Notes under the pieces: model-generated | Seen by the model: only the letters and a program-made list of their open reading frames with translations | Told to the model about the DNA's origin: nothing | Databases searched by the model: none | Position numbers and translations under genes: made by a program | In this document: positions 13,022-30,035 of the stretch, piece by piece | Numbering within the stretch: the first letter of the stretch is position 1 | Layout of the letters: every line of letters starts with the position of its first letter | Assembly (NCBI GenBank): GCA_021806295.1 | Contig: JAJZXS010000035.1 | Span: 18,052 to 82,051 of the forward strand | Direction: 5' to 3' | Origin: Thermoplasmata archaeon | Lineage (GTDB): Archaea; Thermoplasmatota; Thermoplasmata; Thermoplasmatales; Thermoplasmataceae | Length of the DNA stretch: 64,000 nt

Positions 13022-14857
13022 TTACGTAATTGATATGTTATTCAAATCCTCTATAATTGTGGCACCTGAATAGCTGGAAATTATGTTATTATATGTAGGA
13101 AGGAATTTATTATCATTTTTATCTATTATATACATTTTCGAAACTTTTTTTATTTTTTTGGAAATATATTCAAGGTCACTCATGGGATTCCCCGGAAATA
13201 CATTACCCCTTCCATCAGATATCAGCAAAGAGACCGTTTTGAATTTCTCATAAGTGGACAGGTTATATATTTCTATCAGGGCATCATAAAGAGGGGTTTT
13301 TCCCTCACTCTTTATGCTGTTTATATGGTTCCTTAATGATGTAAAGTTTCTGGAAAAATTCATTACAATTTTTGAATGCTGCCCAGAAAATGTTAACAAT
13401 GCTACACGGCTTCTCATTAAATAGAGTTTTTTAAGGAGCATATCTGAAAAATCTTTTGCTATCTGTATCCTTGAACTGAAATTCATTGATCGGCTCGAGT
13501 CAATGGCTATTATAAAGGGAACAGACCCGGATGAAAACGAATCATTTAGAACCACAGTCCTGCTGTTTATTTCACTGAAACCTGATGTCCATGTGTTCAG
13601 CAGCGACGACCTCATATCAATATGAGTACCGGATTTTTTTCCCCGGTGCTTGAACTGCTTTGCAATTCCTGATCTTCCTGAAATTCTGGTTTCCATGCTG
13701 TTTTCTGGCTTTACCTTAATTTTTCCGATCCGGTCTTTTCCGGAGTTATTGTCATGTTTGTCCTTATCTGATCCTTTGCTGTTTCTGAATTTATCACCAC
13801 CCCTGTTATCTTCATCCTCCACATGATTTGTGTTGCTGTTTCCCCCATCTTTATTGTTCTCCTGATTTTCAGGTTCTTTATAGTTATAATCAGGCCTGCT
13901 GTTGCCCTTCTCCCTGATTCTATGGTTGAGGGCGAACTCGAGCGCTTTCTTTAAGTCCTGTTCATTTACATCATTTCTGCCATTATAGGCTGCTATGGCT
14001 TTTGCCGTTTTTACAGTGCTTATCATTGCCCTGTTGCTCAGAGAATTTTTCAGGATTGTATCGGCTATGAACATTAAAAATTCTCTTCTGATTGTAACAT
14101 ATGGGAGTATCTCTCTGGCCTTCATTATTCGTAACTTTATATTCCTATCCCCTTCTTCGAATTTATTGATAAATTCTACCTTATTCCTGTCAAATTCCTC
14201 AACCCGGTTCGATATTTTAAGTAAAGTTTCAGGTGATTCCGGCATTTTTCCCTCCACAGATATTCCGAACCTGTCAAGCAACTGTGGTCTGAGTTCACCC
14301 TCCTCTGGATTCATTGTTCCAACAAGGATAAACCTGGCAGGATGGATATATGATACCCCCTCCCTCTCAACTATATTTACACCAGAAGCCGCAGCATCCA
14401 GGATAGAGTCTACTATGGAGTCCTCCAGCAGGTTTACCTCGTCTATATAGAGTATCCCCCGATTTGCCTCGCCTATCAATCCCTCACGAAGTACTGATTC
14501 TCCCTTTATTGCATGTGAAATATCCAGCGACCCGACTACCCTGTCCAGTGTTGTGCTATTTGGAAGATTCACTATCCTGATTTTCATGTCTTCTGTCTCC
14601 AGTTTGCCATTTTTCTGCCTTTCTATACATTCATCGCATAGATCACCTTCAGGGTCACAGTGGAATCTGCAGCCTTTAACAGCCCTTATCTCCGGCAGTA
14701 CGGATGACAAGGATCGTACCATGGTTGATTTTGCTATGCCCTTTGGGCCGGTAATTAACAATCCGCCTATTTTACTATCTATTGCATTAACTATCAGGCC
14801 AAGTTTGATATCATCATTGCCTACTATGGCTGAGAATGGAAAATAATAAGTTTTCAT
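13022..14857 (-). CDS. Fused ChlI-ChlD type magnesium/cobalt chelatase AAA+ and VWA protein
   Basis: N-terminal AAA+ (GPKGIAKSTMVRSL, ILYIDEVNLLEDSIVDSILDAAASG, GTMNPEEGELRPQLLDRFG), acidic/basic linker, C-terminal VWA/MIDAS (IAIDSSRSMNFSSRI). Confidence 0.92.
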   Translation of the reverse strand: MKTYYFPFSAIVGNDDIKLGLIVNAIDSKIGGLLITGPKGIAKSTMVRSLSSVLPEIRAVKGCRFHCDPEGDLCDECIERQKNGKLETEDMKIRIVNLPNSTTLDRVVGSLDISHAIKGESVLREGLIGEANRGILYIDEVNLLEDSIVDSILDAAASGVNIVEREGVSYIHPARFILVGTMNPEEGELRPQLLDRFGISVEGKMPESPETLLKISNRVEEFDRNKVEFINKFEEGDRNIKLRIMKAREILPYVTIRREFLMFIADTILKNSLSNRAMISTVKTAKAIAAYNGRNDVNEQDLKKALEFALNHRIREKGNSRPDYNYKEPENQENNKDGGNSNTNHVEDEDNRGGDKFRNSKGSDKDKHDNNSGKDRIGKIKVKPENSMETRISGRSGIAKQFKHRGKKSGTHIDMRSSLLNTWTSGFSEINSRTVVLNDSFSSGSVPFIIAIDSSRSMNFSSRIQIAKDFSDMLLKKLYLMRSRVALLTFSGQHSKIVMNFSRNFTSLRNHINSIKSEGKTPLYDALIEIYNLSTYEKFKTVSLLISDGRGNVFPGNPMSDLEYISKKIKKVSKMYIIDKNDNKFLPTYNNIISSYSGATIIEDLNNISIT

Positions 14858-17800
14858 TCATTTTCACCTTCAATTTCCATGTATTCTTCTTCCAGTTTCT
14901 CCTTCATTTCATCGGTGGCATGCCATATATCCCTTTTATATGCCTCTATCATTCTTGATGTGATCTCTGAAAGTGCCCATGGATTCTCCTTTTTGAACCA
15001 GTCCTTCATATTTTTATCCATGATAAATTTCTCAGCTATGTTGTTGAAAATATTATCATTGACCATTCCGGTTGTGGCCCCCCATCCATATAGATGCTCT
15101 ATTTTTTTTAGCATTTCAGTAGCCCCCCGGTATCCAAAATTTTTCTGGGCATCAATCCACTTTTCATTTAGCAACTTTCCAATTGCAGTTCTTTCTATTT
15201 CCTCCTTCATAGTTCTTACTTTTGGCTTATTTGGATTGAATGTGTCCTCGAACATAAGCGATGGATTTGATCCACTCTTTTTTGCCATTAAATAAAATCC
15301 ACCTGCGTAAGAATAATTGCAGGAATCGTCGTTTATATCAATTTCATCTATTTCCCGCTTATGTATGATGGTTTCTATATCCTTTGATATTGAAAGAAGC
15401 TGTTCCCTGGATTCCTTTCCAAAATTGTTTTTGCCATAAGAATATCCCATCCATTCGGTGAATACTTCAGCTAAATCCCCCTCATTTTCCCATCTTGATG
15501 ATTCAACAGCATTATTTACACCGGAACCGTATGACCCTGGCTTTGAAGAGAATATCCTGTCAAGGTGCCCGTATTTCCTGTGATGCTTGATAATAAAGTT
15601 GCTATCCTCGTCCTCATCCAGTTCAGATATTTTCTTAACCGCCATATCTATCAGCTCTATTATATTGAAAAGATTATCGCGGACTATTCCGCTGGATTCC
15701 ACAACCACATCAATTCTTGGCCGTTTCAGTATATCCAGCGGGATGGGCTTAACATCCTTGACCTTTTTGGTTCCCTCCTGCCATACTGGCTCAACGCCCA
15801 GCGTATAAAGTATCTGTGAAATTAGTTCTCCATCTGAACGGTATGCATCCGTAGACCAGAGTACAAATCCTATTGTTTCAGGAAATTTATTTTCTTTTTT
15901 ATACTCGTTTTCTATAAGTTTGTTTGCAAGAACCACCCCCACCTGCCAGGCTGAGTGGCTTGGTATTTTAAACGGGTCAACGGCATAGAAGTTTCTTCCT
16001 GATGGAAGCACATCATATCTTCCCCTGGTAAGTGAACCTGATACCCCTGGCTCTATATATTTGCCTTCCAGTGCTGACAGAATATTCTTTCTTTCATTTT
16101 CCGGAGAATATTTTAATTTCTCTATTATTCCAGATTCAAGTTCAGGCAGCTGACCGCCATTGCCCAGATATTCATTTATTATTGTTTCTGCCGCCTCTTT
16201 CCCCTTTTCTTTATACAGGGAATCATCAAAACGGGTGGCAGTGATAACATAATCCTTTATATCAGCTGTTTCCAGATCCTTTCCATATACATACAGTCCT
16301 TTTGTAACTACGGAATCCTTGAAAAGATTCAATCTATGCTCTATTTCATGAGTTGCCTTATTTGAATCCTTGAAGTCTATTGATAGCCCGATCTTATGAG
16401 AAAGTTTCTGTATTCTATCAAGTATCATGCCCTCTCTGGGTTTATTTTCAGCCTTTTCAGTTTCTTCGTAGTCATCTATGAGGTCCTCGAGTTCCTTTAT
16501 TTCCTCTGGAACCTCATCATAGGCGGTTGGTGGTGTTATATAATCCAGTAATACAGCATAGCTTCTTCTCTTGGCAATGATACCCTCCCCTGGCACATTT
16601 GTTGAGTAAAGGTATAGATTTGGAATTTCTCCTATGGAAATTTCAGGGAAGTCCGAAGGGGACAAACCCAGACCCTTTCCTGGCGTGAATTCCAGCGTCC
16701 CGTGGGTCCCAACGTGTATAATGGCATCTGCCATGAATATCTCCTGAATCCATTTATAAAATGCAAGCCAGTAGTGGGTTATTGGTGTTAGGGAATCATG
16801 TATAGTCCTTATACTGTTGTCATTATCTGCAAAGGTGATCCTCTTTGGCTGTATCCCGATGAATATATTGCCAGATATTATTCCAGGGATTTCTATTTTA
16901 CCGTCCTTGAGCATATAATCTCTTTCATTATTCAGTTTACCCCATCTGGATATAATCTGATCCCTGGAGTCTTCTGGAAGCTTTTCAAAAAATCTATTGT
17001 ACTGCCCAACAGGCATGCTGTAGATCGACCCTCCTTTATTTATTACATCCTCAACAGGTGTCCATTTGCCCTCTGGGATTGCCTTCCTCTCCATGATTGT
17101 TTTTATCAATGATTCTCCATCTTCCGGAATATAATCCAGGGAATATCCTTCGGCTTTCAGGAGATGCATTATATTTGAAACGGAATTGAGCGTGTCCAGC
17201 CCTGTTGCGGTACCGATATTGGCCTCAAGGTCCTTGAAAGAAGACCCAGAATGAAGTATTATGGCAATTTTTTTATCACTGTTCTTCTTATATTTAAGGT
17301 CAATCCATCTGCTTATTCTCCCGGCCATATAACTTACCTGTTCATTGACCGGGACAAGCTCCCTGTATACAGTACCGCGGTCATAAATCTTTTTGATAAG
17401 CCCTATGAGGACCGGCTCTATGGTGCCATCCATTTCAGGAAGCATGGCGCTCATTATTGTTGAAACCACATCAAGACCGGAAGAATCAAGCCATTCTTTT
17501 TCCTCCTTGTAATAGTAAATAAGTCCCTGGAAAACAGGTACGCCAAGTTCCATAAGTGTGGTCTTGTCCTCCTTTTTTATCAGCGAAAATGAAAGCAGGT
17601 TAATAACTGCATCTACAGCCGGTTTTCCATCCTGATAAAAATATTCCTGGATGCATTCCTCGGCACTTTTGATATTTCTGGACTTATCACCGAATCCATT
17701 TGTAAACACAGGAATTGCCGATATTTCCCTGCTGTTCAGTTCATCAATAATAGATCTTACAATGCCGGTGTCATTATCCACCCATGCTGTTCTGTAGAAA

Positions 17801-18264
17801 AGTATGCCTGCCTTTCTGGGATAGCCAGTATTACCGTAATTATAGATCCCGGAGAAGGGCATTTCAACAGGTTCTTTATAGGTACAGCCATCATTCAGGC
17901 TTTCAATGAACAGCACCATATTTTTGATATTTTCATATCCGCCATAGAAATAGTAATTAGATACCCTTTCCTCAACAAATTTGCTTACAGTAGAGTAACT
18001 GCTCAGTATAGGGTCTATGGCAATGACATTCTTTTTATTTTTAATTACGGATTCGATATCCTCAAGAATATTGCTATATATATTCTCCCCTGAAAAATGA
18101 TGTATAAATACAGCATCGGCTGTTTTAATAAAATCAATAAATTCAGAATCCACTGGGTCAAGCCGGGGATATTTTATCTCTATCTCATTTCCGGTTTCCT
18201 CACCTGCTTTAAGGAAGGACTGGATAACAGAACCATTCCAGCCAATAAGTACGGCAAACTTCAT
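14854..18264 (-). CDS. cobN: CobN/ChlH family chelatase large subunit
   Basis: IIHVGTHGTLEFTPGKGLGLSPSDFPEISIGEIPNLYLYSTNVPGEGIIAKRRSYAVLLDYITPP and PSGRNFYAVDPFKIPSHSAWQVG are CobN/BchH hallmarks. Confidence 0.93.
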   Translation of the reverse strand: MKFAVLIGWNGSVIQSFLKAGEETGNEIEIKYPRLDPVDSEFIDFIKTADAVFIHHFSGENIYSNILEDIESVIKNKKNVIAIDPILSSYSTVSKFVEERVSNYYFYGGYENIKNMVLFIESLNDGCTYKEPVEMPFSGIYNYGNTGYPRKAGILFYRTAWVDNDTGIVRSIIDELNSREISAIPVFTNGFGDKSRNIKSAEECIQEYFYQDGKPAVDAVINLLSFSLIKKEDKTTLMELGVPVFQGLIYYYKEEKEWLDSSGLDVVSTIMSAMLPEMDGTIEPVLIGLIKKIYDRGTVYRELVPVNEQVSYMAGRISRWIDLKYKKNSDKKIAIILHSGSSFKDLEANIGTATGLDTLNSVSNIMHLLKAEGYSLDYIPEDGESLIKTIMERKAIPEGKWTPVEDVINKGGSIYSMPVGQYNRFFEKLPEDSRDQIISRWGKLNNERDYMLKDGKIEIPGIISGNIFIGIQPKRITFADNDNSIRTIHDSLTPITHYWLAFYKWIQEIFMADAIIHVGTHGTLEFTPGKGLGLSPSDFPEISIGEIPNLYLYSTNVPGEGIIAKRRSYAVLLDYITPPTAYDEVPEEIKELEDLIDDYEETEKAENKPREGMILDRIQKLSHKIGLSIDFKDSNKATHEIEHRLNLFKDSVVTKGLYVYGKDLETADIKDYVITATRFDDSLYKEKGKEAAETIINEYLGNGGQLPELESGIIEKLKYSPENERKNILSALEGKYIEPGVSGSLTRGRYDVLPSGRNFYAVDPFKIPSHSAWQVGVVLANKLIENEYKKENKFPETIGFVLWSTDAYRSDGELISQILYTLGVEPVWQEGTKKVKDVKPIPLDILKRPRIDVVVESSGIVRDNLFNIIELIDMAVKKISELDEDEDSNFIIKHHRKYGHLDRIFSSKPGSYGSGVNNAVESSRWENEGDLAEVFTEWMGYSYGKNNFGKESREQLLSISKDIETIIHKREIDEIDINDDSCNYSYAGGFYLMAKKSGSNPSLMFEDTFNPNKPKVRTMKEEIERTAIGKLLNEKWIDAQKNFGYRGATEMLKKIEHLYGWGATTGMVNDNIFNNIAEKFIMDKNMKDWFKKENPWALSEITSRMIEAYKRDIWHATDEMKEKLEEEYMEIEGENE

Positions 18265-18506: not shown

Positions 18507-19457
18507 GTGATTAAAATGTTGGAATTAATCCTGGAGACGGTTTCGCAGTATCTGTTCGTTGTTTTATTTTCACCAATTCTTATAGGGATTTTTGAAAAGT
18601 TAAAGGCAAATGTTGAATCCCGGAAAGGCCCCAGTATCTTTCAACCCTATTATGATATATTCAAGTTGTTGAAGAAGGAAACGTTAATCACAAAAGATTC
18701 ATCAAAATTATTTTTATATGCACCGTATATGGCATTTGGCATATATTCCCTTATAGCCCTGATTATTCCAGTGTTCATGACGCAGCCTATAATTTTTACT
18801 GCTTCTGGGGATTTTTTTGCCGGTGCCATACTGTTCTCCCTGGCGGCCTTCATAAAAATAATAGGAACAATGGATTCTGGAAGCAACTTCTCCTCCATGG
18901 GAGCATCAAGGCTTATGTCATTCAACTTCTTCAGCGAGGGCACACTTATAACAGTTTTCTTTGCTGTGGCACTGATAACCGGCACAAATAATCCCTACAC
19001 AACAAATCATTTCCTTATCAGCCATCCACTTTCCAACCTGAGCCTCGTACATATCTTTGCAATATTCGCATTCTTCATGATCTTCATGTACGAATTCGGG
19101 AAGATGCCGACACAGAGTGAGGGAAACCAGGAAATGGGTATGATAGATTCAGGCATAGATTATGAGTACAGTGGCAAGGCCCTTGCAGTAAACAAATGGT
19201 CATCATACATGAAGGTCTATCTTCTGGGATCCGTATTAATCAATGTGTTCCTTATCCCCTGGGGAATGTCCAATACATTTCCATTATTCTTCCTTAACGC
19301 CCTTACAATGATTGCAAAATGGATATTCCTTATAATCATTGTGCTCATAGTAGACACTTCCCTGGCCAAATTACGTCTGTTCAAGGTTATAGACTATCTT
19401 GCTGTGGCATTTACATTTTCAATACTGTTTCTCATACTTTCAGAGGTGATTGCATGA
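18507..19457 (+). CDS. Hyf/Hyc-type membrane subunit (HyfC/HycD; NuoH-like)
   Basis: PILIGIFEKLKANVESRKGPSIFQPYYDIFKLLKKE is typical of the NuoH/HycD family; 8 TM segments. Confidence 0.9.
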   Translation: MIKMLELILETVSQYLFVVLFSPILIGIFEKLKANVESRKGPSIFQPYYDIFKLLKKETLITKDSSKLFLYAPYMAFGIYSLIALIIPVFMTQPIIFTASGDFFAGAILFSLAAFIKIIGTMDSGSNFSSMGASRLMSFNFFSEGTLITVFFAVALITGTNNPYTTNHFLISHPLSNLSLVHIFAIFAFFMIFMYEFGKMPTQSEGNQEMGMIDSGIDYEYSGKALAVNKWSSYMKVYLLGSVLINVFLIPWGMSNTFPLFFLNALTMIAKWIFLIIIVLIVDTSLAKLRLFKVIDYLAVAFTFSILFLILSEVIA

Positions 19458-20095
19458 ACGTAGTTTTTACAGTGATATATTTGATCGCTGCACTCATAGT
19501 AGTAACAGGATTTTATATACAGAGCAACAAATATTTGAGGTCAATGGTCATGACACAGGCATTTCAGTCACTTCTCATTGCCATTATAGCAATACTTCTG
19601 GGTTTCCAGCTTAAGCAGTATACGTTTTTCATACTGGCTGTACTTGTTATTCTGCTGAGGAGTATTCTGGTTACATATTTCCTGGTAGCAAAGATCCCGA
19701 AAAATAAAAATTATTTATATGAATCCAGGCTTCCAACAACCTATTACCTTCTGGTTGATCTTGCATTCATTGTAGTATCCATATTTATAGTGTACTCAAT
19801 ATCATTTATTCATATAATTTCCCGCATATTCCCGGAAAGCAATATTATTCTGTTTCCCCTGCTATTGTTCTTCCAGGGGCTATTTATTATTGCTTCCAGG
19901 AGGAGAACTATTGCACAGATACTTGGCTACATCGAGGAGGAAAATTCACTGATACTCATGGGTACCTTTATTCTTCCGGTTCCAATTATAATAGAAAGCA
20001 GCGTGTTCCTGGACGTTCTGATACTTGTAGTAATTTTTTCAATTATAAGTATTGAAAAAACAGAACATAAACCTGTGGAGGAGTTGAGAGGATGA
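19454..20095 (+). CDS. HyfE-like small membrane subunit
   Basis: Multi-TM protein directly between HyfC-like and HyfF-like genes; RSMVMTQAFQSLLIAIIAILLGF; start refined to ATG 19454. Confidence 0.75.
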   Translation: MNVVFTVIYLIAALIVVTGFYIQSNKYLRSMVMTQAFQSLLIAIIAILLGFQLKQYTFFILAVLVILLRSILVTYFLVAKIPKNKNYLYESRLPTTYYLLVDLAFIVVSIFIVYSISFIHIISRIFPESNIILFPLLLFFQGLFIIASRRRTIAQILGYIEEENSLILMGTFILPVPIIIESSVFLDVLILVVIFSIISIEKTEHKPVEELRG

Positions 20096-21417
20096 TTTAC
20101 GAAATACTCATATTGATTATACCGTTTATTGCTATGGGATTCTACAGGAATATTAAAACCACCAGTATAATAGCAGCTATTGCTGAAATGTTCCTGCTTA
20201 TTCCACTGTACTTTAATTTATCTGATTCAGGGTTCTTTTTCATTGACCGTATTACCTATATATTCATTCTAATGGTAAGCTCTATTTATCTTATGTCCCT
20301 GATCTATTCCAGAAAATATATCCATAATGTAAAGAACAGAGGAATTTCGGAAAATGTTTACTACATCCTCATGGGATTCTTCTATGTTGCCATGGAATTT
20401 GCCCTGATGGTAAATAATTATGGGTTCATGTGGGTTGGAATAGAAACTACTACCATATCATCAGCCCTGCTCTTAATTACTGAAAAATCAGATATATCCC
20501 TTGAGGCTACATGGAGGTATATAATCATAGTATCTGCAGGGGTCACATTCGCCTTCATATCTGTTATATTAATATATTATGCCTTCGGAACGCTTACAGT
20601 TACTGTAATTCTATCTAAGGGAATTACAGATAGTCTTGCTGTGAGGTTGGCTGTCGGAATTGCCCTGGTTGGATTCGGCACTAAAGTGGGTGTTTTCCCT
20701 GTACACACATGGCTTCCGGACGCCCATAGTGAGGCTCCTGCACCTGTGAGTGCAATGTTTTCAGGAGTATTGCTGCCGGTTGCACTATATGTACTTTACA
20801 GAATTTATGAAATCTTTCCCATGAGGGAACTATTTATCTGGGCAGGTACCATTTCAGTGCTTTTTGCTGCCATATTCCTTGGTTATCAGAAAAATTACAA
20901 GAGGATGTTTGCCTATTCAACAATGGAAAATATGAATATAGCGCTCATAGGTTTGAGCACATTTACCCTTGCCGGACTGGTGGGTTCCCTCCTGCTCCTA
21001 TTATCACACAGTTTCGGAAAGGCCGGCGCCTTTTACTCCTCCGGAAATGTTTTTGAGATGTCAGGAACTAAATCAATTGACAGTGTCGGTGGGTTAATAA
21101 GGAACAGGGCAAGTGCCACTTCCATGCTGCTATCCTCTTTTGCCGTAACAGGAACACCTCCATTCGGGACATTTTTCGGGGAATTTCTCATACTCTATTC
21201 TGTTCTTTCCATACATTTCTATGCACAGTTCAGCATAATAGTACTCTCACTTTTCCTTGCATTTGTATCAATAAATTTCAATATATCTAAAATGCTTTTC
21301 AGGGGGAAGTCAGAATACAGCCAGTCAGGCATCAATACTGTTATACCTCTTATAGCAGCAATAATTTCCATATTCATAGGAATTGTATTCCTGGTGGTGT
21401 ATCATGAAATATTATGA
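20092..21417 (+). CDS. HyfF-like proton-translocating (NuoL/M/N, Mrp) subunit
   Basis: FGTKVGVFPVHTWLPDAHSEAPAPVSAMFSGVLLPVALY antiporter-like signature. Confidence 0.92.
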   Translation: MIYEILILIIPFIAMGFYRNIKTTSIIAAIAEMFLLIPLYFNLSDSGFFFIDRITYIFILMVSSIYLMSLIYSRKYIHNVKNRGISENVYYILMGFFYVAMEFALMVNNYGFMWVGIETTTISSALLLITEKSDISLEATWRYIIIVSAGVTFAFISVILIYYAFGTLTVTVILSKGITDSLAVRLAVGIALVGFGTKVGVFPVHTWLPDAHSEAPAPVSAMFSGVLLPVALYVLYRIYEIFPMRELFIWAGTISVLFAAIFLGYQKNYKRMFAYSTMENMNIALIGLSTFTLAGLVGSLLLLLSHSFGKAGAFYSSGNVFEMSGTKSIDSVGGLIRNRASATSMLLSSFAVTGTPPFGTFFGEFLILYSVLSIHFYAQFSIIVLSLFLAFVSINFNISKMLFRGKSEYSQSGINTVIPLIAAIISIFIGIVFLVVYHEIL

Positions 21418-22558
21418 ATTCGGAGACAAGACCGGAAGATACGTCGGGAGAACTGAAAAATATGATGTTTACGCCTCAACACTTGCAGGTATAGGTAAAG
21501 ATGAAGATGACCATGAAGAAAGAACCCCGGGGGAAATATATTTCAATTATGGGCCATCAGCGGGTGGACTCAGGGAATCTGTAAATTTCAGTATCCTCAC
21601 ACCTGGTGAGGCTATAAGGGATGTTATCATAAATTCGGGTTTTAAAAGAAGGAATATAAGAATAACAGGAGATAGTATTTCAGATGTTATGCTAAAGGTA
21701 GAGCGTATCAATGGATTTCACTCAGCATCACATAGCATAGCCTATGCACTGGCCGTGGAGGATGCTTTAAATGTAGATAACAGTGACCTGAATGATGCGA
21801 GAATTGTAGAAATTGAACTGGAGAGGATAAGGTCCAATATTGATGTGATAAAAGGGTTGTGTGAATCCGCCGGGTTTGCCGTGCCAGAAAAACAGCTACT
21901 TCTTCTGAGGGAGGAGGTTGCGAGAATAATTTCCACTGCTTTCGGGCACAGATATTATTTCTCGGTAAATGGCATAAATTCTGTTGATGGTGATTTTTCC
22001 AGAATAACACTCAATTCTGTTGAGAAACAGTTCAGATCACTTTATGACGGCCTGCTATCATCCAAAATATTCCTGGACAGGATACAGGAAAACGGAATTG
22101 TTTCTGACCCTTTATCTACTGGGCCCGCAGCACGTGCGGCAAATTTCAGGTACGATGCAAGGCTGGATTCCGGGTCCCTGAATTATGGAAAATACAGTAC
22201 TGTAATGGAAAGCAGTGGTGATACATTTTCCAGATTTCTGGTCAGGGCAGAGGAAATACTTGAGTCCATAAATATAATAGAATCATATGATATTAAAAAA
22301 ATTTACAGAAAAAATAGAATGGAATTAAATGGATCCGGAGAGGGCACTGCCAGAATAGAATCACCAGCCGGAGACCTCTTTTATTATGTGAAAATAAATG
22401 AAGGCAGGATAATGGATATACAGATGTCGTCACCATCTTATCTTAATATGAGAAATTTCAGATATGCCCTGAAAAATGGCAATATCTTTACCGATTTCTT
22501 TTTTGTATGGGAAAGCTTCGGCATCTGGATATCGGAACTGGAGGTGAGGTTTCAGTGA
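21404..22558 (+). CDS. Group 4 [NiFe]-hydrogenase-like large subunit lacking NiFe ligand cysteines
   Basis: Homologous framework (GPSAGGLRE..., KVERINGFHSASHSIAYALAVEDA, HRYYFSVNGI), but RICGIC-type motif is RINGFH and the C-terminal DPCxxC region is SFGIWISE. Start refined to ATG 21404. Confidence 0.85.
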   Translation: MKYYEFGDKTGRYVGRTEKYDVYASTLAGIGKDEDDHEERTPGEIYFNYGPSAGGLRESVNFSILTPGEAIRDVIINSGFKRRNIRITGDSISDVMLKVERINGFHSASHSIAYALAVEDALNVDNSDLNDARIVEIELERIRSNIDVIKGLCESAGFAVPEKQLLLLREEVARIISTAFGHRYYFSVNGINSVDGDFSRITLNSVEKQFRSLYDGLLSSKIFLDRIQENGIVSDPLSTGPAARAANFRYDARLDSGSLNYGKYSTVMESSGDTFSRFLVRAEEILESINIIESYDIKKIYRKNRMELNGSGEGTARIESPAGDLFYYVKINEGRIMDIQMSSPSYLNMRNFRYALKNGNIFTDFFFVWESFGIWISELEVRFQ

Positions 22559-23154
22559 ACTGGTTCATCAATGGTGTGAAAAAGAGAATAAAAACTGAGA
22601 AACTGGATAAATACAACCTTATGTATCCCTCTATACTGGAAGGAGTAAGCGACTATAACTGCCCAACAGAGGCGATAAACAATGGAAAATGGAATATGGA
22701 TAAGTGCATATTCTGCAGGCAGTGTGATCTGAATCCCACAGGAAAGCAGGATACATATTCTATTGATCAGAAGATTCCGGGCATATTTAAAAAATCTCTC
22801 TACCTTTACCCTGTGGACTCGGGTACATGCGGTGCCTGCAATGTAGAATTTACCACATTATTTTCACCACAGTACGATTCTAGCAGATTCAAAATTTTTA
22901 TGGCAAACACCCCCAGGCATGCCGATGCGCTGGTGGTCATGGGGGTTCATACAGAGGGAATGGAGCAGATTCTCAGGGAGGCTTATGATGCCATGCCTGA
23001 ACCGAAAATTGTTATAGGGCTGGGTGCATGCGCACTCTCCGGCGGAATTATAGGCAGGAGTGCAATGGAGAAATACGATATACGCATTGCAGGATGCCCC
23101 CCCACACCGGCATCAATCCTCAACGCAATAATAGAGGCGAGGGGTAAAAAATGA
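22555..23154 (+). CDS. Ferredoxin-like domain fused to a NuoB/HyfI-like small subunit
   Basis: NCPTEAI...DKCIFCRQC, followed by GTCGACNVEF, GACALSGG and GCPPTP NuoB cysteines. GTG start at 22555 behind GGAGGTGAGG. Confidence 0.85.
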   Translation: MNWFINGVKKRIKTEKLDKYNLMYPSILEGVSDYNCPTEAINNGKWNMDKCIFCRQCDLNPTGKQDTYSIDQKIPGIFKKSLYLYPVDSGTCGACNVEFTTLFSPQYDSSRFKIFMANTPRHADALVVMGVHTEGMEQILREAYDAMPEPKIVIGLGACALSGGIIGRSAMEKYDIRIAGCPPTPASILNAIIEARGKK

Positions 23155-24896
23155 TATATTATTATATCCCCTTAATCACAGTTTTCCTGGCCGCACTGGT
23201 TTCAATAAGATACAGAACTGCGGGCTATATAATTACTGCCATAGCTTCAGGCCTATTTTTCCTCCTAACATTCAGAATTTTTGATTACATTACATACTTT
23301 TACCTGATAGCAGCCATAGTATGGATAATAACTTCTGTATTTTCAATTTCATATTCCAAGAGGTATGGAGGATGGCTTGCACCGCTGTTCATACTGACAA
23401 TTGCCGGAATGATGACAATACTGTATGCAAATAATTTTCTGGTGTTCATAACAGGCTGGGAGATAATGTCAATACCTGCATATTTAACCGTGGCAATAAA
23501 TAAGAAAAATGACATAGAAGCCTATGTATTCATGCTGTTCTCTGAAATAAGTACTGTACTGATCATAACGGCCGCGGTGCTTTCGTATTATTACACCGCC
23601 ACGCTCAATTTTACAGGGCTTTCCAATGATATAGTCCTGCTCATATTTGCCATAGGCGCCATGTCAAAAATGGGATTGACACCTTTCATGATAAGTGAGT
23701 GGCTTCCAATAGCCCATGGAAGTGCCCCGGCCAATTCATCAGCAATTTTCAGCGCAACAATGACGCTCATGGGGGTGTATGGAATATTAAAAATAGCACT
23801 GCTGTCGCCTGTTTCCATTGATATCGGCGTATTATTCATTATTATAGGTGTGATTTCGGTACTCTTCGGGGCACTCTATGCGTATATATCTGAAAATATG
23901 AAATCACTGGGTGGATTCAGTACAATAGAAAATAATGGGGTGCTCATGGCTGCAATAGGCCTGTTTATAGCTGTAAGCGATAACGTATTAAAAGAATTTA
24001 TCCTCATATCCATAGCCATTTTTGCAATGGCCCATTCCATAGCAAAAACCGGGTTATTTATGTCTATAGGCCATACCGGTGTAGAGTATTTCAGTGCAGT
24101 TAAGGAAGAAAGGGATCCTGTTAATCAGATAGGCAAATTTTTTGCAGTGTCTTCCCTTTCCGGGCTGTTTCCATCACTTGGTGGACTGGGAACATGGATG
24201 GTGCTGGAGTCATTTTTCATGGGTGCCTACCTATACGGCCCGCTGGGTATCGCTTCTATCATAGGGGGCTCCCTTATTGCCATGGGAGAGGGTTTCGCTA
24301 CCGCTGCCATGCTGAAAATTTTTTATTTCACCGATAACAGCCGGAAATCACGTGGAAAAAACCTGGAGAATTACACTATTCTGGGTACAGGGATAACTCT
24401 TGTATTTCTGTTCGCTGTATCATTTTTGATTGTGGGAAAGAGTTATATATCTGGCATACCCACTGTTCTTGTATTCAATGGATTTATGATCGAATCTCGC
24501 CTGGGCATATCTGATTTCGGGCTTATAACACCCCTTTACATTGTGGTCCTTCTGGGAGTATTTACATTGATTGTATTTTCGGTCTTCGGAAGACCAAAAA
24601 CCAGAACTACCGTTAGCTGGAATGGCGGGATAGAACAGGGAGAACACTATAATTCTTTCACATATTCTAATAACATCCGCCTTATACTTAAAAGAATACT
24701 CAGGACTAAAAATACAGATGTAAGCAAGGTAGAAACTGTTGATATCTTCTGGATGATCATGATCAATATTGCCAGAGCTTATAGAAATTTTGCTAAATTT
24801 ACAGCATACAAAATCATGAACAGCTCCATATCGGCATATATTATATACATGATAGCAGCATTCATACTTGTTATTATAATTGTATCACTTGTCTGA
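23151..24896 (+). CDS. HyfB-like proton-translocating (NuoL-family) subunit
   Basis: MSKMGLTPFMISEWLPIAHGSAPANSSAIFSATMTLMGVYGI; C-terminal TTVSWNGGIEQGEHYNSFTYSNNIR. Confidence 0.9.
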   Translation: MIYYYIPLITVFLAALVSIRYRTAGYIITAIASGLFFLLTFRIFDYITYFYLIAAIVWIITSVFSISYSKRYGGWLAPLFILTIAGMMTILYANNFLVFITGWEIMSIPAYLTVAINKKNDIEAYVFMLFSEISTVLIITAAVLSYYYTATLNFTGLSNDIVLLIFAIGAMSKMGLTPFMISEWLPIAHGSAPANSSAIFSATMTLMGVYGILKIALLSPVSIDIGVLFIIIGVISVLFGALYAYISENMKSLGGFSTIENNGVLMAAIGLFIAVSDNVLKEFILISIAIFAMAHSIAKTGLFMSIGHTGVEYFSAVKEERDPVNQIGKFFAVSSLSGLFPSLGGLGTWMVLESFFMGAYLYGPLGIASIIGGSLIAMGEGFATAAMLKIFYFTDNSRKSRGKNLENYTILGTGITLVFLFAVSFLIVGKSYISGIPTVLVFNGFMIESRLGISDFGLITPLYIVVLLGVFTLIVFSVFGRPKTRTTVSWNGGIEQGEHYNSFTYSNNIRLILKRILRTKNTDVSKVETVDIFWMIMINIARAYRNFAKFTAYKIMNSSISAYIIYMIAAFILVIIIVSLV

Positions 24897-25950: not shown

Positions 25951-27165
25951 ATGGAATATGATTTGGAAAGCAACAGGAAGATTGCACAGAGTATAGCAAC
26001 ATCACCATGGAATGGCAGGCACTGGATAATTTTTTTTACGGTATCTGTATCATTTTTGATGTGGGGAGTTACACTAAGCATAGCACCTCTTATAACAACC
26101 TGGTATTTTGTTCCTGCCTTTGCATACTATCCGATTATTGGTGCTGCACCGGCAGGACTCCTGACAGGAAACATTGTTATGGGAATAATATCTGATAGGA
26201 CTGGAAGGAGAAGAAGCTACCTCATAACTCTGTTTTTGACTGTAGCGGGACTTGCGGGCATAGGCTTCACATATAATTATGTCGCCCTGATTGCATTTGT
26301 GTTTATAGCGGAATTCGGGCTCGGTGGTGATGAAACCGTATCACTTTCAGTGATGTCGGAATATTTTCCATCACGATACAGAGGAACCGCAATAGTGGAA
26401 TCCTCAAATATGGCCAACATAGGAATAACATTGATGGCCGGTATCTTTTTACTGCTTTCGAGTTCCATTTTTGTCCAGAAAATTGCACTTGTATCCATTG
26501 CAATGATAGGAGGGGCAATATCCCTGTTCGCAAGGCATAGAATAAAGGAAAGCATTTTATGGGAAAATAGAAAAAATATTTATCGAGCACAATTCCATTT
26601 CAGGGGTGCAATGAAATTTATTGCCCTATCTCTGATGGGCATAGCCATAATCGTGGGGTTTGCATTTTCAGACCTTGTGCTTGGACCATTTCATTTCCCG
26701 GAGTATACAGACCTGATTATATTTTTTTCTGTGCTGGCCGAATCGATTACAGGCGTGTTGGGTGGGTTTATTATTGGAAGATCAGGCAGGAAGATCATAT
26801 CCATGATAGGATTTTCCGGTCTTCTTGGATCGTGGATAGTGCTTTTATTGTTCTTTAATGATGTAATATCTAACCTATACCTATTATTGGCCATGCTTGC
26901 TATTAGCTCAGTTTTCGGTGAAATTGCATGGGCATCCAGAGAGCTCCTTGAACCAGAAAATTTTACCAGCCGGTACAGGGGAAGGGGTGTTGGCAGTGTG
27001 CGACTCACAGGTTATACTCTGTATATAGCATTTATATTTATTCTTGCCAGTGCTTCCATTGATCTATACGCCTGGTTTATTCTTATAGTTTATGTGGCAG
27101 GATTTGCCGGGGGTATGCTGTATTTATTGTACGGACTTGAAACTAAGGATTCCTATGTGATTTGA
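25951..27165 (+). CDS. MFS transporter, predicted thiamine or thiamine-precursor uptake
   Basis: MFS motifs (GIISDRTGRRRSYLI, GLGGDETVSLSVMSEYFPSRYRG); directly preceded by a TPP riboswitch. Confidence 0.9.
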   Translation: MEYDLESNRKIAQSIATSPWNGRHWIIFFTVSVSFLMWGVTLSIAPLITTWYFVPAFAYYPIIGAAPAGLLTGNIVMGIISDRTGRRRSYLITLFLTVAGLAGIGFTYNYVALIAFVFIAEFGLGGDETVSLSVMSEYFPSRYRGTAIVESSNMANIGITLMAGIFLLLSSSIFVQKIALVSIAMIGGAISLFARHRIKESILWENRKNIYRAQFHFRGAMKFIALSLMGIAIIVGFAFSDLVLGPFHFPEYTDLIIFFSVLAESITGVLGGFIIGRSGRKIISMIGFSGLLGSWIVLLLFFNDVISNLYLLLAMLAISSVFGEIAWASRELLEPENFTSRYRGRGVGSVRLTGYTLYIAFIFILASASIDLYAWFILIVYVAGFAGGMLYLLYGLETKDSYVI

Positions 27166-28111
27166 TAAATTCTCCCAGTACTTTAAAATCAGATTTCATG
27201 ATTTCAAGGTTTGCTGGATTTCTTAGGGCAGCTGCTGGATGAACTGTGATGAGGTATTTATTTTCAATTATCTTGCCGTGATATGCTGTAATGCCTTTTA
27301 AATTTAGAAGCGCCCCTGCCGCTGTTGCTCCCAGGAGTACAATGATCTGTGGATTCACTATGTCTAACTGCTTTTTCAGGAATGGCATGCATATGGCTAC
27401 TTCATCCTCGGTAGGTGCACGGTTTTCAGGCGGGAAAAATTGTACCACACTTGTAATGTAAACGTCCTCTCTGTCGAGGCCAATTCCCTGTATCAGGCTA
27501 TCGAGGAGTTTTCCACTTCTTCCAATAAATGGCCTTCTTTCCAGGTCCTCATTTCTGCCGGGTGCCTGGCCGATAAAGAATACCTTTGAATTTAGGTTTC
27601 CTTCTCCAGGAACAAAATTGACACTTAAATTCCATTTACTTTTTATGGGAATATTTTTGTATTCGGAATTTAACGCCTCCATATCAAGGTATTTTTTTAA
27701 ATATGAATTTGCATACTGCATGAGGTCTTTCTGGTTCCCGAAGTTAAGATTTCCCATGGCATCAGAATAGTTGAGCCAGACGTAACCTCTATGTTCATCA
27801 GATACTTTCACTATTGTATTCTCGGGCACTATAGACATGAACATTCTCACATGTTTGAGTATTTTTACTGAATTATATGTGAACCTGTACGTTATATCAT
27901 AATGAAAGTATGGTATCAGGTTCTTTTCGTCAATTTTTATTCCCGATTCTTCCCGGGTTTCCCTAATTGCAGCGGCAGTACCTGTTTCCCCCTTCTCAAT
28001 ATGGCCCTTGGGAAAATCAAGCCATCCTTCTGCCCTTTTCAGAAGCAAATATTTATAGTCACCATGGAAACTGGATATGACCACGATTCCATAACTGTAT
28101 TCTTCTCTCAT
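27143..28111 (-). CDS. Nudix hydrolase fused to a family 4-type uracil-DNA glycosylase
   Basis: Nudix box GHIEKGETGTAAAIRETREESGI; UDG motifs IGQAPGRNEDLERRPFIGRSGKLLD and TVHPAAALRNP. Start refined to the internal Met at 28111. Confidence 0.9.
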   Translation of the reverse strand: MREEYSYGIVVISSFHGDYKYLLLKRAEGWLDFPKGHIEKGETGTAAAIRETREESGIKIDEKNLIPYFHYDITYRFTYNSVKILKHVRMFMSIVPENTIVKVSDEHRGYVWLNYSDAMGNLNFGNQKDLMQYANSYLKKYLDMEALNSEYKNIPIKSKWNLSVNFVPGEGNLNSKVFFIGQAPGRNEDLERRPFIGRSGKLLDSLIQGIGLDREDVYITSVVQFFPPENRAPTEDEVAICMPFLKKQLDIVNPQIIVLLGATAAGALLNLKGITAYHGKIIENKYLITVHPAAALRNPANLEIMKSDFKVLGEFIKSHRNP

Positions 28112-28251
28112 GAGTTGGAATTTCAAACATATATAAAAATTAGTCAGACCATTTATACGCATTAATTAATAATGGTAATTAAAAATGACCGAAAAAGAAC
28201 AAATATACAATAAATGAAAAACTCTTTATTTTATAAGCCTTTTCAACTGTA

Positions 28252-28926
28252 ATGAAGATATATGCTGAAATTTATCCGTCCAGAAACCTGGAAACTGTAA
28301 AACAGGACATAAAAAAACTGGCAGATTTTGACGGATTCAACATACCCGACAATCCTCTGGGATACCCGACAATGCCTCCTGAACTTATTGGCTATATGAT
28401 AAGAGAGATGTTTCAGAATAAAGAAATCATACTGAACCAGCGCTTAAAGGACATAAATGAATTAAAACTCCGTTCCATTATAAAGGCAGCCAGGGCAATC
28501 AATGCATCTATTATATTCACACAGGGGGATAAACCAAAATTTGGAAATGAGTTCCATGAAATAAATTCAATAAATGCTATGAAGCTTGCCATCAAAAGGG
28601 GGGTAGAGTCTGGAGTTATATTGAGTTTCAGGAAACCTCTTTCTGAAATTAAAACAAGAATGGATTCCGGTGCTGATATTTATCTTGTTATCAATTTTGG
28701 AGACACTGCCATATTGAATAATATAAACACTGAAAAACTGGTTCCATATATCATAGTGAGAACAGAAAAAAACGGAGACATAGTTGACAGAATCAACCAG
28801 CCCTCCGTTAGATTAAAAGAATTGCATTCTTTTGTAGACCAGTTGCGCAATTATAAGTTCAGGGGATATCTGTTCTCTGTACCGGGAGATACAGTAACAC
28901 TTACTAATATCCACAGATATATTTAA
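28252..28926 (+). CDS. Methylenetetrahydrofolate reductase-like TIM-barrel protein (short)
   Basis: Start KIYAEIYPSRN...DFDGFNIPDNPLGYPTMPPELIGYMIRE resembles the MetF/FAH2 fold in style only. Confidence 0.45.
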   Translation: MKIYAEIYPSRNLETVKQDIKKLADFDGFNIPDNPLGYPTMPPELIGYMIREMFQNKEIILNQRLKDINELKLRSIIKAARAINASIIFTQGDKPKFGNEFHEINSINAMKLAIKRGVESGVILSFRKPLSEIKTRMDSGADIYLVINFGDTAILNNINTEKLVPYIIVRTEKNGDIVDRINQPSVRLKELHSFVDQLRNYKFRGYLFSVPGDTVTLTNIHRYI

Positions 28927-29069: not shown

Positions 29070-30035
29070 ATGGTTAAAACCATGTACAAATTTGTAATCG
29101 TTGCGATTGCCATAATTCTCGCTGGGGTGTTTATTACAACCTCCTTTTCAGGTTATCAGGATCAACAAACGTCAAATGGAATAACAACAATAGACGCATA
29201 TTCAGCACATAATGTAAAGACTTTGAACAGCTCAGCTGTAACAAATTCGACACCGGCTAATTATATCATGAATCATGATATTATTAAAATTTCCACACTA
29301 ACTCACGTGTTGGTAAATGGGACTTATCTGAATAGTGATATTGTAGATAAGGCTTTGATTACTAATTCCAGCGTTAATGATAGCAGGATTGGCAAGGCAA
29401 CTTTAATGAATATATTTGTGAACAATACATATATTTATATGGCAACAGTGGCAAATGGAAGTATAGAGAATTCAGTTGTATGGTCTGCAAATGTAGAGTA
29501 TGCAGGTATAGAAAATACCAGCATATGGGATTCCAGACTTGCCCATGTAACGGTAGAAAATGCGCATATTTTGAAAGCAAGTATATACAATGGGACTGTA
29601 GAGAATTCAACTTTGTATGATATGGGATTGCAGAATGTCACAGCTTCCAACACATCAATATATGATTCCTCCATGTCCAATGTAGATTTAGAGCATACAG
29701 TTGTCAAAGATGCGTCTATAGATTCTGGATTTATAAACAACTCTAAGTTAATCTATGTAGGATTGGGTTCAGGCGTTCATCTAGGTACAAATGTAACAAT
29801 AATTCCTTCAATAAATTCTTCACCTACACTGCCACCAACTATAGGTCCATCACCCCCACCTGTGCACACATCACCTAAGAGTTCTATCCCAAAGTATAAC
29901 AGCACATCAGTTTTCACAAATCCGGTTCCTGGCTCCACGAATCCATTAGGTGGAAACTGGAATAACCATAATGGTAATATAAATTCGATAAAACCAATTA
30001 ATTTCACAGGACCGCAGAATACCGGGCATAACTGA
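29070..30035 (+). CDS. Predicted secreted or surface-anchored repeat protein (pentapeptide/beta-helix-like)
   Basis: N-terminal hydrophobic segment (FVIVAIAIILAGVFITTSF); degenerate xSxV/xNxxI repeats; Pro/Ser/Asn-rich C-terminus; many N-x-S/T sequons. Confidence 0.65.
   Translation: MVKTMYKFVIVAIAIILAGVFITTSFSGYQDQQTSNGITTIDAYSAHNVKTLNSSAVTNSTPANYIMNHDIIKISTLTHVLVNGTYLNSDIVDKALITNSSVNDSRIGKATLMNIFVNNTYIYMATVANGSIENSVVWSANVEYAGIENTSIWDSRLAHVTVENAHILKASIYNGTVENSTLYDMGLQNVTASNTSIYDSSMSNVDLEHTVVKDASIDSGFINNSKLIYVGLGSGVHLGTNVTIIPSINSSPTLPPTIGPSPPPVHTSPKSSIPKYNSTSVFTNPVPGSTNPLGGNWNNHNGNINSIKPINFTGPQNTGHN

Follow-up and report, generated by a model that had tools for sequence, protein, structure and literature searches.

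Introduction

Uracil-DNA glycosylases (UDGs) of family 4, such as T. maritima TM0511, T. thermophilus (Tth) UDGa and the S. tokodaii enzyme 4ZBX, excise uracil from single- and double-stranded DNA and are characterised by a first motif of the form GE(A/G)PG, a second motif HPAA(V/A)L with the catalytic histidine, a third motif with an asparagine (N80) that reads the uracil, and four cysteines that serve as ligands of a [4Fe-4S] cluster. The contribution of individual residues has been measured in Tth UDGa, where k2/Km was reduced from 2.4e5 to 2.7e2 by E41Q (about 900-fold), to 5.5e3 by N80A (about 40-fold), to 9.4e1 by H155S (about 2,500-fold) and by about 7-fold by N89A (PMC5387724 Table 1). 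In the E41Q-G42D double mutant the value was back up to 4.5e4, which is only about 5-fold impaired (PMC5387724). Published mutants of the family 4 cysteines were lowered only in part in their activity (PMC5295032). A change of substrate has been described for Brig1, a UDG-superfamily enzyme with a glutamate at the position equivalent to N80, which acts on the glucosylated hmC of phage (PMC11078745).

A DNA glycosylase and a Nudix domain are also found in one chain in MutY/MUTYH, where an HhH glycosylase with an Fe-S cluster carries a C-terminal, MutT-like and non-catalytic Nudix domain (PMC9266487); the review cited here discusses Nudix domains for MutY only. We describe a gene of the archaeal genus Ferroplasma in which the order of the domains is reversed. 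Compared with MutY, the encoded protein has the alpha/beta fold of the UDGs, no Fe-S site, and an N-terminal Nudix domain of the Ap4A hydrolase type with a complete catalytic box. Both kinds of enzyme are already known, and no prior description of their combined architecture was found in the searchable literature, most subscription journals being outside our reach.

Results

A Nudix domain and a family 4-type UDG domain are encoded by one intact gene

The fusion gene is located on the minus strand of the window, by which we refer to the whole stretch of 64,000 nucleotides that was analysed, and consists of an uninterrupted reading frame of 322 codons and a stop codon. The gene and its main parts are as follows.

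27143 to 28111, minus strand: Nudix-UDG fusion gene, 322 amino acids, with the stop codon at 27143-27145 and the ATG at 28111
27695 to 28111, minus strand: N-terminal Nudix domain, residues 1-139, Ap4A-hydrolase-like (Pfam, structure matches, conservation)
27146 to 27694, minus strand: C-terminal family 4-type UDG domain, residues 140-322 (Pfam, NCBIfam, predicted fold)
27659 to 27739, minus strand: residues 125-151, overlap of the predicted Nudix and UDG helices (two separate domain models)

An alternative ATG further upstream, at 28162, would give a longer reading frame. The start at 28111 (MREEYSYG...) is conserved among the orthologues, and this position was therefore taken as the translation start.

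Both domains were identified by Pfam with scores that exceeded the curated cut-offs (NUDIX, residues 10-119, 60.6 bits; UDG, residues 168-301, 124.5 bits), and the NCBIfam model for family 4 UDGs, TIGR00758, gave 166.7 bits, well in excess of the 125.3 required. The score for the archaeal family 4 equivalog NF040953 was about 161 bits (161.5), far below its cut-off of 250. The first-pass annotation, which was made from the sequence and placed a Nudix box and a family 4-type UDG in one protein, was thus correct, and the strings that it quoted (SKWNLSVNFVPGEGN, VVQFFPPENR and EVAICMPFL) are all exact.

It had also raised the possibility that two genes were fused by a frameshift or an assembly error. 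Such an artefact is ruled out by the intact fusion in 10 genomes, with full-length fusions in 8 genomes of the genus and additional paralogues in a sister genus. Full-length fusions were identified in 10 of the 117 genomes of the order, which represent 33 genera, and were confined to Ferroplasma, the genus of the window, and one sister genus (g19). The 8 Ferroplasma genomes with an uninterrupted full-length fusion include that of the window and 7 others, with 55% to 89% sequence identity, and in genome G001 the fusion gene is cut in two by the ends of two contigs, where the neighbouring genes are those expected. The sister genus contained two fusion paralogues in genome G027, with identities of 45% to 48%. 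No fusion was found outside these two genera in 400 genomes from the class, 117 from the order and 390 from the phylum. Among plasmids and phages no fusion was evident; one plasmid match covered 83% of the query at 25% identity.

The dN/dS ratios ranged from 0.06 to 0.11 for the whole fusion gene and from 0.03 to 0.14 for the separate halves, with the exception of one Nudix value of 0.175 at low divergence. Both halves are under strong purifying selection.

The UDG domain has lost the ligands of the Fe-S cluster

The predicted fold of the UDG domain (pLDDT 94.9) matched the structures of family 4 enzymes with TM scores of 0.83 to 0.86, and the order of the motifs was the same. The segments that correspond to the ligands and the base pocket are listed below, with the Tth UDGa numbering for the equivalent residues.

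27638 to 27652, minus strand: residues 154-158, site of the usual CxxC loop, with I154 and K157 at ligand positions 1 and 2
27545 to 27571, minus strand: motif 1, residues 181-189 (GQAPGRNED), with Q182 in place of E41 (role from PMC5387724)
27413 to 27460, minus strand: motif 3, residues 218-233 (YITSVVQFFPPENRAP), with S221 at N80, Q224 at K83, F225 at the third ligand and N230 at N89
27389 to 27391, minus strand: C241, the sole cysteine of the fusion protein, the last Fe-S-type ligand kept
27221 to 27247, minus strand: motif 2, residues 289-297 (TVHPAAALR), with the catalytic H291 (H155)

In an alignment with canonical family 4 enzymes, the four ligand positions were occupied by I154, K157, F225 and C241. 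This bears out the earlier observations that the CxxC is replaced, that the cysteine of VVKCRPPxNR is a phenylalanine, and that only the cysteine in EVAICMPFL is left. The cysteines are not displaced to other positions, since C241 is the only one in the entire protein, and with a single cysteine in 322 amino acids the usual four-cysteine [4Fe-4S] site is not possible, in agreement with the proposal that the cluster is absent. Three orthologues contained one additional cysteine at position 155, a count still short of what the cluster requires, and the last cysteine was absent from one paralogue (L033).

Such ligand loss is not restricted to the fusion. All or nearly all of them were also missing from standalone family 4-type UDGs of archaeal (L113, L124, L125, L126) and viral (L095, L256, L259) origin, in each of which E41, N80 and H155 were intact. 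Since these separate archaeal and viral lineages without Fe-S ligands retain a normal pocket, the alignments indicate that the loss is recurrent and tolerated, which agrees with the partial activity of the cysteine mutants (PMC5295032). It was also noted that the third ligand cysteine was replaced by a histidine, with the other three cysteines kept, in several standalone UDGs (L003, L102, L103, L106-L108, L115, the viral L210, L213 and L224, and others). Because UdgX too has a histidine at the third ligand position, a cluster held by three cysteines and one histidine may be common.

The base pocket of the UDG domain is altered

The fusion proteins also differ from family 4 enzymes in the pocket, which the first-pass annotation had not mentioned. 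H291 (H155), N230 (N89), F195 (F54), E188 and D189 were invariant in all 10 fusion proteins, and motif 2 retains the family 4 pattern with its catalytic histidine. At the position of E41, all 10 had a glutamine (Q182), so that motif 1 reads GQAPG in nine and GQSPG in one, rather than GE(A/G)PG. N80 was replaced by a serine (S221) and K83 by a glutamine (Q224) in nine of the ten; the paralogue L033 retains N80 and K83, and the pocket is for this reason not fixed across the whole fusion clade.

Given that the published cysteine mutants lose activity only partly (PMC5295032), the change of the pocket probably weighs more for the function than the loss of the cluster. The Tth UDGa mutant data and the shifted specificity of Brig1 predict slow or altered excision for the natural pocket changes, as opposed to ordinary UDG activity. 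The same genome contained one other UDG, of the family 5 type, which retains its cysteines.

The resemblance to other members of the superfamily is partial. UdgX shares the family 4-like fold, and its histidine at the third ligand recurs in the nearest standalone relatives of the fusion UDG; the fusion has PPENRAP instead of the KRRIH loop and GQAPG instead of GEQPG in motif 1, and it scored 105 bits with the UdgX model TIGR03914, the cut-off of which is 190. With Brig1 it shares a replacement at N80, the specificity of Brig1 being shifted (PMC11078745). It differs from Brig1 in that the residue is a serine and the locus is conserved across the genus. A role as a defence system was considered and rejected, since the sole PADLOC match was a weak one between the Nudix box and a candidate.

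The Nudix domain resembles Ap4A hydrolases

The Nudix box was complete in the window protein (G36, E42, R50, E51, E54, E55 and G57) and follows the consensus GX5EX7REUXEEXGU, with a threonine at the U position 52, as in human NUDT2. G36, E42, R50, E51, E54 and E55 were invariant in all 10 fusion proteins, and G57 was replaced by an asparagine in one paralogue.

In a sequence search against solved structures, Ap4A hydrolases were the first matches (5e-11 to 2e-9), followed by MutT at about 1e-5. The picture was the same for the AlphaFold2 domain model (pLDDT 95.4), the 17 best PDB matches of which were all Ap4A hydrolases or CT771, which was solved with Ap4A products. The asymmetrical Ap4A hydrolases (NUDT2, C. 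elegans 1KTG, Chlamydia CT771 and Aquifex 3I7U), a type of enzyme that splits Ap4A into ATP and AMP, and the fusion share the Nudix box, the fold, the conserved Y75 and an S-x-E-H...W segment. The fusion differs in carrying a UDG domain, and the identity in the fold alignments was about 24% to 28%. Furthermore, the MutT equivalog models gave 27 to 29 bits on the fusion protein, with cut-offs of 98 to 148. By sequence and predicted fold, the Nudix half is thus Ap4A-hydrolase-like, and not MutT- or dUTPase-like.

The Nudix domains of the fusions were nested within the clade formed by the family's own standalone Nudix proteins (100/100), and shared an inner clade with the standalone proteins of another sister genus, g18 (99/98), which places the domain as native to the host archaeal family. 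A scan with a single sequence found no viral relatives of the Nudix half.

Relatives of the UDG domain and Nudix-UDG linkage in other archaea

Among the archaeal relatives examined, the pair of glutamine at E41 and serine at N80 was present only in the fusions and in standalone UDGs of genomes related to LFW-252_3, a Woesearchaeota MAG (PMC8561730). In these Woesearchaeota-related UDGs, the serine usually occurred together with a glutamine at position 41. Of the viral family 4-type UDGs, 80 of 82 had E41 and all 82 had N80, in a sample that is biased, since the search pattern admitted only E, Q or T at the first position and the majority of the rows had been picked for their similarity to a mostly canonical query.

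A phylogeny of the UDG domains, inferred after removal of the trait columns, grouped the fusions with the Woesearchaeota-related S80 clade and L105 and L112 (97/78, not starred). The standalone UDGs with a motif 1 glutamine and S80 (L003, L102-L104, L106-L109, L115), which are the nearest UDG group in this tree, differ from the fusion in that the CxxC and the last cysteine are kept, the third position is a histidine or cysteine, and no Nudix domain is fused. The tree favours an origin of the fusion UDG from the S80 clade of other archaea. We do not claim a transfer, because the alternative grouping with the canonical UDGs of the same family was not rejected (p-AU 0.108). Since the S80 clade that groups with the fusions keeps the CxxC and the last cysteine, the pocket change probably predates the loss of the cluster.

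The S80-type UDG clade comprises about 11 genomes, and in 4 of them a Nudix gene was linked to the UDG gene. In L163, the Nudix gene runs 13 nt into the start of the UDG gene; both are on one strand and follow the order of the fusion. In the other three (L003, L145 and L150) it was located 0.9 to 3.1 kb from the UDG gene within one conserved cluster, which contains the Nudix gene, a lipoprotein-like gene, the S80 UDG gene and a gene for a small helical protein without a Pfam match. The linked Nudix proteins formed a clade apart from the fusion Nudix domains, so that the association between the two domains seems to have arisen more than once. The linkage between neighbours may represent few events, because three of the four genomes share one syntenic cluster. 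For each of three Woesearchaeota-related genomes, a sample of about 145 surrounding genomes contained no fusion, and no other close pairs of Nudix and UDG genes were noticed by eye among the matches listed for Thermoplasmata and the other sampled genomes.

The fusion locus is conserved within the genus

The fusion gene is located between two genes on the opposite strand.

25951 to 27165, plus strand: convergent MFS transporter gene, the 3' end of which overlaps the 3' end of the fusion gene (context only)
28252 to 28926, plus strand: divergent gene for a protein of 224 amino acids without a Pfam match, a conserved neighbour (context only)

The two 3' ends overlap by 23 nt (27143-27165 of the window). 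The MFS gene was syntenic across Ferroplasma and also adjoins copy 1 of the fusion in the sister genus g19. The divergent gene was likewise syntenic in Ferroplasma (genus g1) and was also found beside the standalone Nudix gene of g18. In g18, this Nudix gene occupies the corresponding locus between matching flanking genes, without a UDG: it ends with a stop codon at the domain border and is followed, in place of the UDG and MFS genes, by a gene that we call radical-SAM-like from the appearance of its sequence alone. Either the ancestor shared by Ferroplasma and g19 gained the UDG domain, or g18 lost it.

Elsewhere in the window, a membrane cluster resembling complex I or group 4 hydrogenases (18507-24896; NADHdh, Proton_antipo_M, Complex1_49kDa, Oxidored_q6) adjoins a CobN/Mg-chelatase gene (14854-18264). 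An apparently exported protein rich in Asn, Ser and Thr is encoded at 29070-30035, with a pentapeptide-repeat match below the threshold.

Discussion

On balance, sequence comparisons and models lead us to favour, with moderate confidence, the view that the fusion is a bifunctional hydrolase-glycosylase of weakened or altered base specificity, encoded on the chromosome and conserved in Ferroplasma and its sister genus. The Nudix half would act as a hydrolase of dinucleoside polyphosphates, or of a similar nucleotide-diphosphate compound. The glycosylase half would cleave the N-glycosidic bond by means of H291, to stabilise the leaving base, and N230, to position the water, and the replacement of E41 by Gln and of N80 by Ser would make it slow on uracil or allow other damaged bases to be accepted. 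Most dU repair would then probably be done by the family 5 UDG of the Fe-S type that the genome also encodes. The two domains were modelled individually, and the C-terminal helix of the Nudix model (residues 125-141) overlaps the first helix of the UDG model (residues 129-151); read across the two models, a single helix may extend from one domain into the other. W160, which is invariant, is located within the segment that replaces the cluster loop. The helical connection and aromatic packing by W160 and F225 could anchor the loop, a task that falls to the cluster in ordinary family 4 enzymes. The cell would benefit from having both activities side by side at sites of repair or on products that are related.

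Different roles for either half have to be weighed against this reading. It is possible that E41Q and N80S together leave almost no uracil excision, and thereby a binding-only or vestigial glycosylase. The UDG half might then be a dead or nearly dead binder of uracil, another lesion or abasic DNA that targets an active Nudix half to DNA, a view that fits the positions of Q182 and S221, which correspond to residues whose single mutation in Tth UDGa lowers k2/Km by about 900-fold (E41Q) and about 40-fold (N80A) (PMC5387724), and the report that inactive family 4 homologues are common in Halobacteria (PMC5295032). We consider it rather unlikely, given that H291, the histidine for the leaving group, and N230, the residue that would position the water, were invariant in 10 of 10 fusion proteins, that the UDG domain is under strong purifying selection, and that the impairment of E41Q shrank to about 5-fold once the following residue was changed as well, so that context can rescue it (PMC5387724). 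The converse, in which the glycosylase is the sole enzyme and the Nudix half reads lesions without catalysis, has its precedent in MutY/MUTYH, where a non-catalytic Nudix domain was grafted onto a glycosylase (PMC9266487). The complete box with its invariant catalytic residues speaks against such a role, as do the Ap4A hydrolases, rather than MutT, as nearest relatives, the separate standalone genes in the host family and the opposite order of the domains, and we regard it as improbable.

The first-pass annotation had proposed that base excision is coupled to sanitisation of the nucleotide pool, with dUTP or 8-oxo-dGTP as candidate substrates. Nudix enzymes do include MutT, and the MutT models gave weak matches of 27 to 29 bits. 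These scores are far below the cut-offs of 98 to 148 bits, and the sequence and fold point to Ap4A hydrolases; the proposal is not supported as stated, and we consider it very unlikely. Another suggestion concerns the cause of the cluster loss and is compatible with any function, namely that the hosts adapted in this way to surroundings that are acidic and rich in iron and oxidants. The hosts are indeed extreme acidophiles (PMC5473848), but the family 4 UDGs of relatives in the same family still have all four cysteines, the family 5 UDG encoded alongside the fusion retains its own, and family 4 UDGs without Fe-S ligands also occur in Woesearchaeota-related archaea and on viral contigs, which leaves this explanation improbable.

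The chemistry of ligases gives rise to Ap4A and 5'-adenylylated ends as side products. A more specific and speculative version of the bifunctional reading, to which we assign a low probability, is that both sites act on one repair intermediate, with the Nudix half removing adenylate or nucleotide caps and the Fe-S-free glycosylase, by virtue of its Q/S pocket, excising a base that is not plain uracil. The protein would then be a self-contained enzyme for excision and end-cleaning, to which gene linkage in the Woesearchaeota-related genomes and fusion in Ferroplasma and g19 would have led in parallel.

The fusion provides a natural test of the role of the [4Fe-4S] cluster in family 4 glycosylases, the ligands of which are gone here and in several archaeal and viral lineages, and of the drift in base specificity upon change of the E41/N80 pair. 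It would be the second, independent joining of a Nudix domain and a DNA glycosylase after MutY, with the domains in reverse and a Nudix site that appears to be functional. The fusion also suggests that in archaea base excision is functionally connected with the metabolism of dinucleoside polyphosphates.
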